Source: Microcella alkaliphila (GTDB lineage Bacteria > Actinomycetota > Actinomycetes > Actinomycetales > Microbacteriaceae). Taken from it: DNA of 64,000 nt. The stretch is from assembly GCF_004216855.1 (NCBI RefSeq), contig NZ_SGXT01000015.1, forward strand, positions 62,001-126,000, given 5' to 3'. This document shows positions 39,489-43,212 of the stretch, one piece after another (position 1 is the first letter of the stretch; the number at the start of each line of letters is the position of its first letter). Under the pieces are notes generated by a model. The model did not search any database, had not been told where the DNA came from, and saw only the letters and a list, made by a program, of their open reading frames with translations. The translations under genes were made by a program, and so were the position numbers.

Positions 39489-40713
39489 GCGCCGCTTCCC
39501 CCGGCCGAGCGAGCTCGCGCCGCTCATGAAGTTCAAAACCCCGACGCTGAACGCCAAGAAGCGCCGACTGGATGCTGCGCTCACCATCGCCGACCTGCGC
39601 GCGATCGCGCAGCGCCGCACCCCGAAGGCCCCCTTCGACTACACGGAGGGTGCCGCCGAAGCCGAGCTGTCACTGGCGCGGGCGCGCGAGGCGTTCCGTG
39701 ACATCCAATTCAACCCGGCGATCCTGCGTGATGTCTCCACCGTCGACACGGGGTGGGACGTACTCGGCAAGCGCGCCGAGCTGCCGTTCGGCATCGCCCC
39801 GACGGGCTTCACCCGCATGATGCAGACCGAGGGCGAGGTCGCGGGGGCGTCCGCCGCCGCCGCCGCGGGCATCCCGTTCTCGCTGTCGACGATGGGCACC
39901 ACGAGCATCGAAGGCGTGCGCGACGCGGCGCCCGACGGCCGCAACTGGTTCCAGCTCTACATGTGGAAGGACCGCGAGAAGTCGATGCAGCTCGTCGACC
40001 GCGCGGCCGCCGCGGGCTTCGACACCCTGCTCGTCACGGTCGACGTTCCCGTCGCCGGCGCGCGGCTGCGCGACAAGCGCAACGGCTTCTCGATTCCGCC
40101 GGCCCTCACGGTCGGCACGATCGTCAACGCGATCCCCCGCCCCTGGTGGTGGTGGGACTTCCTGACGACCGAGCCGCTCGACTTCGCGAGCCTGTCGAGC
40201 TGGGATGGGACAGTCGCCGAGCTGCTCGACTTCATGTTCGACCCCACCGTCACGTACGACGACCTCGCCTGGATCAAGGAGCAGTGGCCCGGCAAGCTCG
40301 TCGTCAAGGGCGTGCAGACCCTCGACGATGCGAAGAAGCTCACCGATCTCGGCGTTGACGGCATCACGCTGTCGAACCACGGCGGCCGCCAGCTCGACCG
40401 CGCCCCGATTCCCTTCCACCTGTTGCCCGAAGTCGCCCGCCAGGTCGGACACCACACCGAGGTGCACATCGACACGGGCATCATGTCGGGCGCCGACATC
40501 GTCGCGTCGGTTGCGCTTGGGGCGCGCTTCACGTTGATCGGTCGCGCCTACCTCTACGGGCTCATGGCCGGTGGCCGAGCGGGTGTCGACCGGGCCATCG
40601 AGATCCTGCGCGGTGAGATCGTCCGCACCATGAAGCTGCTGGGGGTGACCTCGCTCGAGGAGCTCACGCCCGACCACGTCACCCAGCTGCAGCGGCTGGT
40701 GCCGCTCCGCTGA
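39481..40713 (+). CDS. lldD: FMN-dependent alpha-hydroxy-acid dehydrogenase, probable L-lactate dehydrogenase
   Basis: The 410-residue TIM-barrel flavoprotein has the catalytic His300 in SNHGGRQLD, the phosphate-binding [16 protein letters not shown] near the C-terminus and the FMN-contact region [10 protein letters not shown] (101-110). A Trp-rich insertion (PRPWWWWDF, about 220) is in the loop that in membrane-associated members meets the lipid. It oxidises L-lactate to pyruvate with quinone or oxygen as acceptor. ATG 39481 overlaps the gntR stop. It completes rhamnose breakdown by consuming the lactate made by the RhaEW-type protein. Confidence 0.88.
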
Positions 40714-40747
40714 TCACACCACCGGGATGCTCGTGCCCGGTTCACGA

Positions 40748-40787
40748 GGCCCCGTCGCGGCGCTGTGGTGGTCGCCGCGGCGGGGCC
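40748..40787. terminator. Long GC-rich hairpin after lldD
   Basis: A 15-bp stem, GGCCCCGTCGCGGCG (40748-40762) with CGCCGCGGCGGGGCC (40773-40787), has a single T-G wobble and a 10-nt loop. It begins 34 bp after the lldD stop. It lacks a U-tract but is the kind of stem that ends operons in GC-rich actinobacteria. Confidence 0.75.
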
Positions 40788-40860
40788 GTCCCGGGCATCC
40801 CGTCATACGGCGTAACAAACGTGGCCGGCCCGAAAACGGCACGGATACGGTGATCGCATC

Positions 40861-40896
40861 ATGAGCATCCGACTCTGTCGTTGTTGTTGTCGCTAA
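40861..40896 (+). CDS. Poly-cysteine leader peptide (11 codons)
   Basis: The reading frame ATG...TAA encodes MSIRLCRCCCR, with four Cys codons (all TGT) in the last six positions. There is no Shine-Dalgarno sequence; TACGGT (40846-40851) 9 nt upstream suggests a near-leaderless transcript. This matches the leaderless poly-Cys short ORFs known in mycobacteria, whose ribosomes stall when cysteine is scarce and so switch on the genes downstream. The next gene is the 2OG-Fe(II) oxygenase at 40992, with a 95-nt spacer that would hold the attenuator. The peptide has no other obvious role. Regulation is inferred from the class, not shown. Confidence 0.65.
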   Translation: MSIRLCRCCCR

Positions 40897-40991
40897 CGCT
40901 TCCTCCTCGTTAGCTCTCTCTCGCGCGCTCTGCGCACCCGCGGCTGTGCCCGCGTCGACAACCCCCAACTTCATGCATAAGGATTGAACTC

Positions 40992-42002
40992 ATGACCTCC
41001 GCCAGCCTCCCCATCGTTGACATGTCGCTGCTCGACGGCGACGCCGCCGACCAGCAGCGCTTCCGCGACGAACTGCGCCGCGCCACCCACGAGGTGGGCT
41101 TCTTCTACCTCGTCGGCCACGGCGTCACCGACGCGCAGTTCGCCGAGATGATCGAGCTGTCGAAGCGCTTCTTCGCGCTGCCGGAGGTCGAGAAGCTCGC
41201 GATCGAGAACACGCTCAGCCCGCACTTCCGGGGCTACACCCGCGTCGGCGGCGAGCTCACCCTCGGCAAGCAAGACTGGCGCGAGCAGATCGACATCGGC
41301 GCCGAGCGCGAGGCGGTTCCGGCGGGCGAGGGAGTCGAGGACTACTGGGTGCTCGACGGCCCGAACCTCTGGCCTGACGCACTGCCCGAGCTGAAGACCG
41401 CCTCCCTCGCCTGGATCGACCGGCTCAACGGCATCGGCGCGCGCCTGCTCAGCGCCTGGGCGGAAGCTCTCGGCGCCCCGGCCGACCACTTCGACGCCGC
41501 CTTCGGCGAGCGCCCCAGCCCCAACATGAAGATCGTGCGCTACCCCGGCAAGTCGGGCCCGACCCCCGAGCAGGGCGTCGGCGCGCACAAAGACCTCGGC
41601 GTGCTCACCCTCCTCTACGTCGAAGAGGGCAAGGGCGGCCTGCAGGTTGAGAAGGATGGCGAGTGGATTGACGCCCCGCCCGTCGAGGGCGCGTTCGTCG
41701 TCAACATCGGCGAGCTGCTCGAGGTCGCCACGGACGGCTACCTCAAGGCCACCCTGCACCGCGTCATCTCGCCGGCCGAGGGCGACGAGCGCATCTCGAT
41801 CCCCTACTTCCACGGACCGGCGCTCGACGCCGAGATCCCCCACATCGAGCTGCCCGCCGAGCTCGCCGCCGAGGCGCGCGGCGTCACGCTCGACCCGAAG
41901 AACCCCATCCACGCCGTGTTCGGCCGCAACTGGCTGAAGAGCCGCGTGCGGGCGCACCCGAACGTGGTCGAAGCCCACCACCCGCACCTCGCCGCGAAGT
42001 AG
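40992..42002 (+). CDS. Isopenicillin N synthase-family 2OG-Fe(II) oxygenase
   Basis: This 336-residue non-haem iron dioxygenase has the facial triad His199, Asp201 (HKD) and His256 (LHRV), with the 2-oxoglutarate-binding RIS at 267-269. The N-terminal DIOX_N segment (VGFFYLVGHGV, 35-45) is present. It hydroxylates or oxidises an unknown small substrate with O2 and 2-oxoglutarate. ATG 40992 follows AAGGATT by 8 nt. The poly-Cys leader upstream hints at a substrate or product connected with sulfur supply, which no other member of this family in the window suggests. Confidence 0.85.
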   Translation: MTSASLPIVDMSLLDGDAADQQRFRDELRRATHEVGFFYLVGHGVTDAQFAEMIELSKRFFALPEVEKLAIENTLSPHFRGYTRVGGELTLGKQDWREQIDIGAEREAVPAGEGVEDYWVLDGPNLWPDALPELKTASLAWIDRLNGIGARLLSAWAEALGAPADHFDAAFGERPSPNMKIVRYPGKSGPTPEQGVGAHKDLGVLTLLYVEEGKGGLQVEKDGEWIDAPPVEGAFVVNIGELLEVATDGYLKATLHRVISPAEGDERISIPYFHGPALDAEIPHIELPAELAAEARGVTLDPKNPIHAVFGRNWLKSRVRAHPNVVEAHHPHLAAK

Positions 42003-42093: not shown

Positions 42094-43212
42094 ATGACGT
42101 GGGATCCAAACGTTCCGTACAACGCCCTTGCTCCACTCCCCCCGCCACTGGATGTCGAGACGAAACGGGTTCTCAAGAGCACGATTGAAGCCCGCGCCGC
42201 GCTTGCCGCCCTGAATCAGGCGGCCCAGCGGATCCCGAACCCCGCTGTCCTTCTCAACGCCCTGCCTCTCCTCGAGGCGCAGGCCAGCTCGGAGATCGAG
42301 AACATCGTTACGACCGCGGACGAGCTGTTCGCGGCGGCAGCTCACGAGGGCCTTGCCACGCGGCCCGAGACAAAGGAAACGTTGCGCTATCGGGAAGCGC
42401 TGACCGGCGGCGTTGATCTGGTTCGTGCCCGAGGCCTGTCCATCGCCACCGTGACGCAGGTCTGCTCGATAATCCAGGGCAAGGAGATGGCGATTCGATC
42501 TCTGCCTGGAACCTTCATCGGGAATCCATCCACCCGGACCGCGGTGTACACGCCGCCTGACGGGCGGCTCACAATTCTTGACAAGCTCAGTGACTGGGAA
42601 AGGTTCGCCAGTAGTGAGCGCGTTCTTGACCCGCTCGTCAACATTGCCCTTAGCCACTATCAGTTCGAGGCGATCCACCCGTTCGCCGATGGGAACGGGC
42701 GCACAGGTCGTGTTATTGCCATTCTGCAACTCATCGATCGAGGCCTGCTGTCCTCGCCGATCCTTTACCTCTCTCGGTACATCATTCGCGAAAAGGACGA
42801 GTACTACCGGCTCCTCAAGGAGGTGACGGCCTCGGCTCTATGGGAAGACTGGGTAGTCTTCTTTCTGCGAGGCATCCGAGAAATGGCGGAGTCCACGATC
42901 CACAAGATTGATGGAATCCGGACGCTGCAGGCGGCTACGCAAGAGACGATGCGCGGCGCACTGTCTTCGGGTGCGAACGCGGACCTTCTCGATGTCCTAT
43001 TCGAACAGCCCTACTGTCGAATCCAGGATGTCGTGACCCGATGCAATGTCTCACGCCCAACGGCAACGAAGTGGCTACAGATCTTGGTGGACGCGCAGGT
43101 TCTCATCAGCGTGAAGCTCGGGAAACACCGGATTTTCATCAATCATCGGCTCTTCGAGCTTCTGACACGGGACGACGTGCCCCCCGCACCTCAGGACGCG
43201 ACTCTCTTCTAG
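42094..43212 (+). CDS. Fic family AMP-transferase with C-terminal DNA-binding domain
   Basis: The 372-residue protein has the complete Fic motif HPFADGNGRTGR at 195-206, which transfers AMP (or another nucleotide part) onto a protein. An N-terminal inhibitory helix SSEIEN (65-70) fits the S/TxxxE(G/N) autoinhibition signature, placing it in class II. Residues about 305-345 (DVVTRCNVSRPTATKWLQIL) form a winged helix. The target protein is unknown. It is alone, with no antitoxin gene, and its GC and codon use are visibly lower than its neighbours, suggesting mobile origin. TAGTTT 6 nt from the ATG predicts a leaderless mRNA; a TTG at 42088 is less likely as the start. Confidence 0.9.
   Translation: MTWDPNVPYNALAPLPPPLDVETKRVLKSTIEARAALAALNQAAQRIPNPAVLLNALPLLEAQASSEIENIVTTADELFAAAAHEGLATRPETKETLRYREALTGGVDLVRARGLSIATVTQVCSIIQGKEMAIRSLPGTFIGNPSTRTAVYTPPDGRLTILDKLSDWERFASSERVLDPLVNIALSHYQFEAIHPFADGNGRTGRVIAILQLIDRGLLSSPILYLSRYIIREKDEYYRLLKEVTASALWEDWVVFFLRGIREMAESTIHKIDGIRTLQAATQETMRGALSSGANADLLDVLFEQPYCRIQDVVTRCNVSRPTATKWLQILVDAQVLISVKLGKHRIFINHRLFELLTRDDVPPAPQDATLF

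Follow-up and report, generated by a model that had tools for sequence, protein, structure and literature searches.

The window, as we call the whole stretch of 64,000 nucleotides that was analysed, contains a 2OG-Fe(II) oxygenase gene preceded on the same strand by a very short ORF rich in Cys codons, which forms part of a predicted RNA element. The features to which we refer below are the following.

40714..40812, + strand: strong hairpin 3' of the lldD-like (FMN_dh) gene, a putative unit boundary (-58.9 kcal/mol, z -2.87)
40846..40851, + strand: TANNNT -10-like hexamer TACGGT, a putative promoter element ending 9 nt 5' of the leader ATG
40861..40896, + strand: leader ORF MSIRLCRCCCR*, ATGAGCATCCGACTCTGTCGTTGTTGTTGTCGCTAA (sequence read, ORF shuffle count, conservation)
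40886..40892, + strand: 5' strand of helix P0, GTTGTCG, within the last Cys codons (shared fold, alignment, window fold)
40893..40913, + strand: P1 hairpin, 40893-40898 with 40908-40913, overlapping the leader stop codon (fold; three pairs changed on both sides)
40923..40935, + strand: P2 hairpin, 40923-40926 with 40932-40935 (fold)
40939..40954, + strand: further hairpin in the window fold, 40939-40943 with 40950-40954 (fold)
40956..40962, + strand: 3' strand of P0, CGACAAC, the anti-Cys segment (shared fold, alignment, window fold)
40981..40995, + strand: Shine-Dalgarno-like stretch and oxygenase start codon, with a predicted, suggestive pairing to leader positions 40859-40870 (window fold)
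40992..42002, + strand: 2OG-Fe(II) oxygenase gene (DIOX_N and 2OG-FeII_Oxy), 336 aa (Pfam match, aligned relatives)

The codons of the leader read ATG AGC ATC CGA CTC TGT CGT TGT TGT TGT CGC TAA. Cys is encoded by codons 6, 8, 9 and 10, which start at 40876, 40882, 40885 and 40888 and are all TGT, and the stop codon lies 95 nt from the oxygenase ATG (40992). When we compared 26 poly-Cys leaders, which are related and not independent, we counted 81 TGT and 20 TGC codons, versus 18 TGT and 107 TGC in 51 long ORFs of the window. On both strands of the 64-kb window, MSIRLCRCCCR is the sole ATG or GTG ORF of 6-20 aa with at least four Cys including CC, and 0.1 such ORF is expected by chance per strand (40 dinucleotide shuffles of the + strand). 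The poly-Cys short ORF that the preliminary description placed ahead of the oxygenase is indeed real, as judged from the sequence read, this low expectation and its retention in the genus. It was also called near-leaderless, which is fair since TACGGT ends 9 nt before the ATG and a TANNNT hexamer stands at -15/-16 in 26/26 poly-Cys leaders compared; a stricter scan of 40300-41300 with the sigma-70 consensus gave no promoter-like site. The strong hairpin after the lldD-like gene is present as well. Elsewhere in the same genome, the pattern TGYTGYCGNTRR gave 42 matches versus 73 with the reversed control, and four of them, including that of the window, end in TAA or TAG; the pattern TGYTGYYGN was rejected as too loose (1687 matches versus 2512 with the reversed control).

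Residues H199, D201, H256, R267 and S269 of the oxygenase, which we take to be the metal and 2OG residues, are invariant in 18/18 aligned relatives, and this fits a working 2OG oxygenase. No NCBIfam model matched the protein at E 0.001, and among solved chains the nearest ones carry the labels ethylene/succinate-forming enzyme and probable iron/ascorbate oxidoreductase. We rejected isopenicillin N synthase proper, the best IPNS chain being at 1.4e-22 versus 3.4e-78 for the best chain. Accordingly, the earlier name of the target, an isopenicillin N synthase-family oxygenase, holds as far as the DIOX_N/2OG-FeII_Oxy match goes, but its IPNS part is an automatic family name only, solved IPNS lying far behind. 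A SoFic-like Fic protein (Fic_N, Fic, SoFic-like_C) is encoded directly 3' of the oxygenase at 42103-43212 of the window, and a T-rich stretch precedes its gene. A second oxygenase of 36-39% identity was seen in G006, G008, G010, G011, G015, G016 and G022, of which G016 and G022 are without the ortholog. In G009, a C-terminal oxygenase fragment (C1:2377149-2377328) lies ~1.4 kb past the end of the whole gene and is perhaps a partial duplication; the ortholog L017 (G005) has one in-frame TAG stop.

An oxygenase match at E 0.001 was obtained in 33/60 relatives searched. Within the genus of the window an ortholog is found in 20/26 genomes, two of the 20 being incomplete (G011 is without its 5' end and G023 runs off its contig), and a Cys-run ORF lies upstream in 20/20. 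These leaders include MSIRTSCRCCCR, MSTLFCCRCCR, MNALLCCCCCR, MSRLLCRRCCCRSSL and VSTLRCLCCRR; the Cys runs vary (CRCCC, CCCCC, CCRCC, CRRCCC, CTCC) and Cys codons persist throughout. In 25 cases measured, the leader-to-gene distance falls 17 times at 78-149 nt and 8 times at 177-230 nt. Conservation of the run and of this distance had been set in advance as a check, with lack of the short ORF in relatives as the refuting outcome: the Cys run is kept in all same-genus orthologs, so that this outcome did not occur, but the distance is not fixed. On contig C9 of G011 (L021), the leader is intact and the oxygenase apparently lacks its first 42 residues, the open frame resuming soon after the RNA element. 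As to the counts, L031, L032, L034 and L035 are the same contigs as L004, L009, L018 and L014 and were left out of the 26 leaders, and L023, with a weak leader of two Cys, was excluded. Incidental Cys ORFs judged not leader-like in the genus set were those at L004, L007-L011, L018-L020, L024-L026, L028 and L029, together with longer in-frame forms.

A covariance model, R1, for which the 150 best candidates per genome were scored, found one element in each of 20/26 genus genomes. Nineteen are at the ortholog and one, in G020, is at a contig edge, where the gene would fall off the contig. G018 was missed by R1, yet a Cys-run ORF is present; G001, G004, G016, G022 and G025 have neither an ortholog by homology search nor an R1 element. 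We take the element to be dedicated to the oxygenase mainly on the strength of this genome search. Another model, R2, built from alignment A3 (see below) with stricter filters, matched 2/297 genomes of the order, both from genus g34, and missed the element of the window itself.

Among 80 named loci, a poly-Cys leader is present in 10 (four of the window clade, three Agromyces and three Promicromonospora) and no leader was seen upstream of the oxygenase in 68. Here we discounted incidental Cys ORFs at L051, L052, L080, L089, L102 and L104 and one of two in L037, as well as those at L042, L052, L076 and L110 in the scan that gave the Ornithinimicrobium leaders described below. In genus g34, probably Agromyces, 4/4 oxygenase-bearing genomes have a poly-Cys leader (incidental ORFs at L233 and L240 discounted). 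On an oxygenase tree of 103 rows, which leaves out L017, L021 and L030, a single change accounts for the poly-Cys trait (support 67), versus a mean of 21.1 when shuffled, and the three Promicromonospora rows group with three Agromyces rows (support 99). Because of this placement and of the single trait change, leader and oxygenase gene seem to have moved together between families. Just upstream of the leader, the Agromyces loci L038, L040 and L043 have a LysE-type translocator gene and a divergent LysR-type gene.

The minimum-free-energy folds of 26/26 leaders follow, by eye, one plan, a three-way junction formed by P0, P1 and P2. In P0 the Cys codons (TGYTGTCG; earlier ones in clade B) pair with a segment that lies beyond two hairpins (CGACAAC, CGACAGCA, CGACGACA and others), P1 is the hairpin that begins at or near the leader stop and P2 is a GC hairpin. 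In the window's own minimum-energy fold, P0 has six pairs (40886-40891) and G40892 goes to P1. Fold stability z was -2.1 to -5.4 in 8 of 26 leaders tested, the window having -3.41. In alignment A2 (11 sequences) 95.9% of cells are paired versus 31-50% when slid, and we observed 4 double-changed pairs versus 1.5 in shuffles, 11/500 of which were as high, but further pair types number 6, below the 7.4 of the shuffles. Between clades, pairs of P1 change from GC to AU, from UA to CG and from UA to GC. In the RNAalifold consensus on A2 the downstream segment pairs instead with earlier Cys codons (columns 20-26), and in either predicted register P0 is a helix that involves Cys codons. The plan is reproduced by alignment A3 (8 sequences), which has 3 double-changed pairs and a slightly unfavourable covariation term (+0.8). 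The energy of the duplex between leader and downstream segment has a z of -0.6 in the window and of -1.25 on average in the 26 leaders, several being no better than shuffles, and native duplexes beat cross-clade pairs by 2.6 kcal/mol on average; taken alone, duplex energy is weak evidence for this pairing. No Rfam family was matched by the element at gathering score.

Poly-Cys leaderless short ORFs of mycobacteria exert cysteine-responsive attenuation on operonic genes (Canestrari et al. 2020, as described in passages of PMC9094748, PMC9031893 and PMC13236596), and one of these citing papers calls the mechanism translation attenuation. With its near-leaderless short ORF, its consecutive Cys codons and a same-strand gene downstream, the window system looks built like the mycobacterial attenuators; unlike them, as far as those descriptions go, its target is a DIOX_N 2OG oxygenase. 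The three-way junction built on Cys codons is described here for leaders of the window type, the mycobacterial ones being known from the descriptions in the citing papers. Longer in-frame forms of two other poly-Cys leaders matched no NCBIfam family, leader-peptide models NF042933, NF042934 and NF042936 included, the window peptide (11 aa) being below the 20 aa minimum of the scan.

In transcription attenuators of the trp/ilv type, stalling on codons of the sensed amino acid picks between RNA folds. The stalling proposed here would choose the RNA fold in the same way, on codons of the sensed amino acid, but, unlike in those attenuators, no intrinsic terminator (GC hairpin with a U-run) was found between leader and gene, in 40846-40991.

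We consider it likely that the leader is a ribosome-mediated Cys-codon attenuator controlling a sulfur-scavenging 2OG-Fe(II) oxygenase. Leader conservation, the common fold, the co-occurrence with the gene and the sulfur neighbours of orthologs, presented below, are its computed basis, from which we infer that stalling is the signal, which way control runs, at what step it acts and what kind of substrate the enzyme uses. Transcription would begin very slightly upstream of the leader ATG, with a ribosome initiating at once, as the conserved TANNNT spacing suggests. With enough Cys-tRNA, the ribosome would complete the leader and depart; the Cys codons would then pair with the CGACAAC-type segment (P0), with P1 at the stop codon and P2 alongside, and the closed three-way junction would lower oxygenase expression. 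In the window and its near kin, the outer part of the fold would also mask the ribosome-binding site and the start codon. When Cys-tRNA is scarce, the ribosome would stall on the Cys run and block P0 and P1, and the oxygenase would be expressed, which suggests that cells make this little-known enzyme at cysteine shortage. Once made, the oxygenase would liberate sulfur from an organosulfur compound taken up by the cell, and this sulfur would go into cysteine or homocysteine. As a model for how poly-Cys leaders may work, the three-way junction is compact and testable.

The predicted sensing of Cys by the leader is well supported by its anatomy, and start-site occlusion as the output step is only partly supported by the modelling. 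When the leader was held open, to mimic a stalled ribosome, the mean unpaired probability of the start region rose from 0.34 to 0.59 in the window, which 3/30 shuffled leaders equalled. For 17 short-spacing leaders the mean accessibility rise was 0.16 versus 0.09 for shuffled ones; these accessibility counts leave out L021, which has no oxygenase start. The native value was reached by 0-8/30 shuffles in clades A and B and by 10-23/30 in clade C, and loci with the gene 177-230 nt away gave no clear change of start-site accessibility on simulated stalling. The same Cys sensing could instead have a transcriptional output, transcription being halted before the gene either by the junction once closed or by Rho at the C-rich stretch that follows. 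We give this somewhat less than an even chance: it would agree with the retention of the fold at loci whose gene lies 177-230 nt away and shows no clear response at its start, and with a clade C gain no better than that of shuffled leaders, but 40846-40991 contains no intrinsic-terminator-like site and the outer helix of the window reaches the Shine-Dalgarno-like stretch and the start codon.

A role of the enzyme in sulfur metabolism had been guessed from the leader, and we therefore turn to the genes that surround its orthologs. By tblastn, the family is found in 133 plasmid records at <60% identity. Our sample consisted of one annotated record per genus, for 14 genera, taken from the 60 matches listed of these 133 records; an unannotated Ensifer record was excluded, Agrobacterium and Allorhizobium share one arrangement, and annotation is sparse in some records, for test and control regions alike. 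Equal-sized regions 100 kb away in the same 14 records, searched for the same gene names, served as controls. Named sulfur genes lie within 6 kb of the ortholog in 11/14 plasmid genera (Azospirillum, Pseudoroseomonas, Shinella, Sinorhizobium, Roseomonas, Agrobacterium, Allorhizobium, Pantoea, Duffyella, Klebsiella and Rhodococcus) versus 1/14 control regions; before the last two genera and two controls were added, the count was 9/12 versus 0/12. The lone positive control is that of Klebsiella, where a gene with the name phosphoadenosine phosphosulfate reductase adjoins one for a ParB-domain protein. The neighbours include a transsulfuration PLP enzyme or O-acetylhomoserine sulfhydrylase, SfnB, SsuD, methionine synthase, ABC genes for sulfate, sulfonate or taurine, and MetQ with a methionine permease.

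Comparable arrangements occur on the actinobacterial side. In Promicromonospora thailandica (L033, one of the three loci of that genus), a flavin reductase and a binding protein with SsuA as its best model (below cut-off) come after the leader and the oxygenase; further on lie two monooxygenases, one of DmoA type (554 bits versus a cut-off of 279.7) and one that is SsuD-like (below cut-off). At L263, from the Streptomyces-like genus g137, a leader, the oxygenase and an MFS piece precede genes whose best models are MetQ, MetN and MetI, all below cut-offs. L280 of the same genus, where no leader was seen, has amino-acid ABC genes that best match cystine models (below cut-offs) and, just before the oxygenase, a homocysteine S-methyltransferase (353.8 bits, cut-off 215). 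Clusters at leaderless orthologs (rpsO, PrsW, YceI, MFS, and an LLM/FMN-reductase pair) look like plain synteny and were rejected as functional evidence. The guessed sulfur role is supported by the plasmid genera and by these actinobacterial cases, the window oxygenase itself having no adjoining sulfur gene. One could suppose that the leader senses cysteine and that the oxygenase serves some other process under cysteine-linked control, be it stress (thiol or oxidative) or a natural product. The window gene without a sulfur neighbour would allow it, as would the Tsukamurella, Rhizobium and Chlorohelix plasmid records, in which no named sulfur gene lies within 6 kb, but the excess of sulfur genes beside the ortholog over the control regions makes it unlikely.

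Sulfite reductase (PF01077) was found in 1/12 genus genomes searched and PAPS reductase (PF01507) also in 1/12, with no match to either in the genome of the window; PF01507 is present in 3/4 g34 genomes. CysK (TIGR01136) and O-acetylhomoserine sulfhydrylase (TIGR01326) are found in 12/12 genus genomes, including that of the window, this set and the reductase set sharing 11 of 12 genomes, and NMT1/SsuA-type binding proteins in 7/7. Since cysK and sulfhydrylases are present and no PAPS or sulfite reductase was found, the organism probably lives on reduced or organic sulfur. In the 12 genus genomes, a leader of this kind stands before cysK or the best-scoring sulfhydrylase copy in 0/24 cases. Since no sulfite reductase was found, release of sulfite would be of no help to the organism, and a product at the level of a thiol or sulfide would. 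Concerning the enzyme, we tentatively put forward a bolder idea, which is possible and rather less than probable: it may be a new kind of sulfur-releasing enzyme, which would hydroxylate a thioether or similar compound, taken up from outside, at the carbon that adjoins its sulfur. The product would fall apart to a thiol or sulfide and feed cysK and O-acetylhomoserine sulfhydrylase in bacteria that seemingly reduce neither sulfate nor sulfite, such as the genus of the window, and a dedicated Cys-codon three-way junction would switch the enzyme on at cysteine shortage.

The oxygenase orthologs resemble sulfonate and organosulfur scavenging systems in adjoining such genes (SsuD, SfnB, TauA); they differ in that they belong to DIOX_N/2OG-FeII_Oxy and not to the TauD or flavin-dependent families. 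Among the matches listed from open-licence PMC, no title links a cysteine leader to a DIOX_N/2OG-FeII_Oxy oxygenase, which is weak evidence of novelty, and the word 'isopenicillin' is absent from the passages retrieved for Rhodococcus, Gordonia and Pseudomonas that deal with starvation for sulfur or with its sources. If true, the attenuator reading would provide a regulatory signal and a pathway for a widespread oxygenase family named solely by automatic annotation, and would predict sulfur sources worth testing.

The same gene is found behind a second leader design. In g137 (family f37; genomes of 6.4-9.9 Mb) the ortholog is present in 18 genomes, and 16 of 17 loci examined have an HVD-type leader, such as MLPMLVRRRHVDYVRVTSMGCRRSA, 85-214 nt upstream of the oxygenase. 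The leader of G037, MSSVLVRRVHVDLLRTNSSLCRG, reaches 29.6 bits with NCBIfam NF042934 (cut-off 27), which 3/7 leaders of this second design scanned passed (29.6, 28.6 and 27.3 bits); with the Ms4527A Cys-leader model NF042936 (cut-off 45), five of six scanned gave 23-33 bits. Leaders at oxygenase orthologs of other actinobacteria are thus like the NF042934 and NF042936 leaders, which, unlike the window leader, contain one or few Cys in peptides of the form HVD(L/Y)..C. A leader common to two Ornithinimicrobium is likewise not of the poly-Cys type (14.4 bits to NF042934, below cut-off). No leader was seen at the oxygenase of G658 (family f58), and 0/10 loci of family f22 have one, incidental Cys ORFs at L243, L250 and L253 being discounted. 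If the attenuator reading is true, one gene behind two unlike leader designs means that leader peptides can help to assign the function of orphan enzymes.

Clusters of Cys are able to bind metals, and the target resembles an iron enzyme; the sensor could then be the peptide rather than its codons, binding a metal or reacting with oxidants on the ribosome. This is highly improbable given that the number and spacing of Cys vary freely, that the Arg codon after the Cys run belongs to the paired region and that another leader type serves the same gene elsewhere; a metal-sensing peptide was set aside on the varying Cys spacing. That the leader is a chance ORF without function, for which nothing was found to speak but its small size, is already refuted by its conservation in 20/20 same-genus orthologs with 0.1 expected per strand. 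Near the same genes at L280, ~2.6 kb on from the start of the oxygenase, there is a second ORF that resembles an HVD-type leader, MHVPGAAPKGACTGARLITRRHVDYCRTSSAVCTSVHV.
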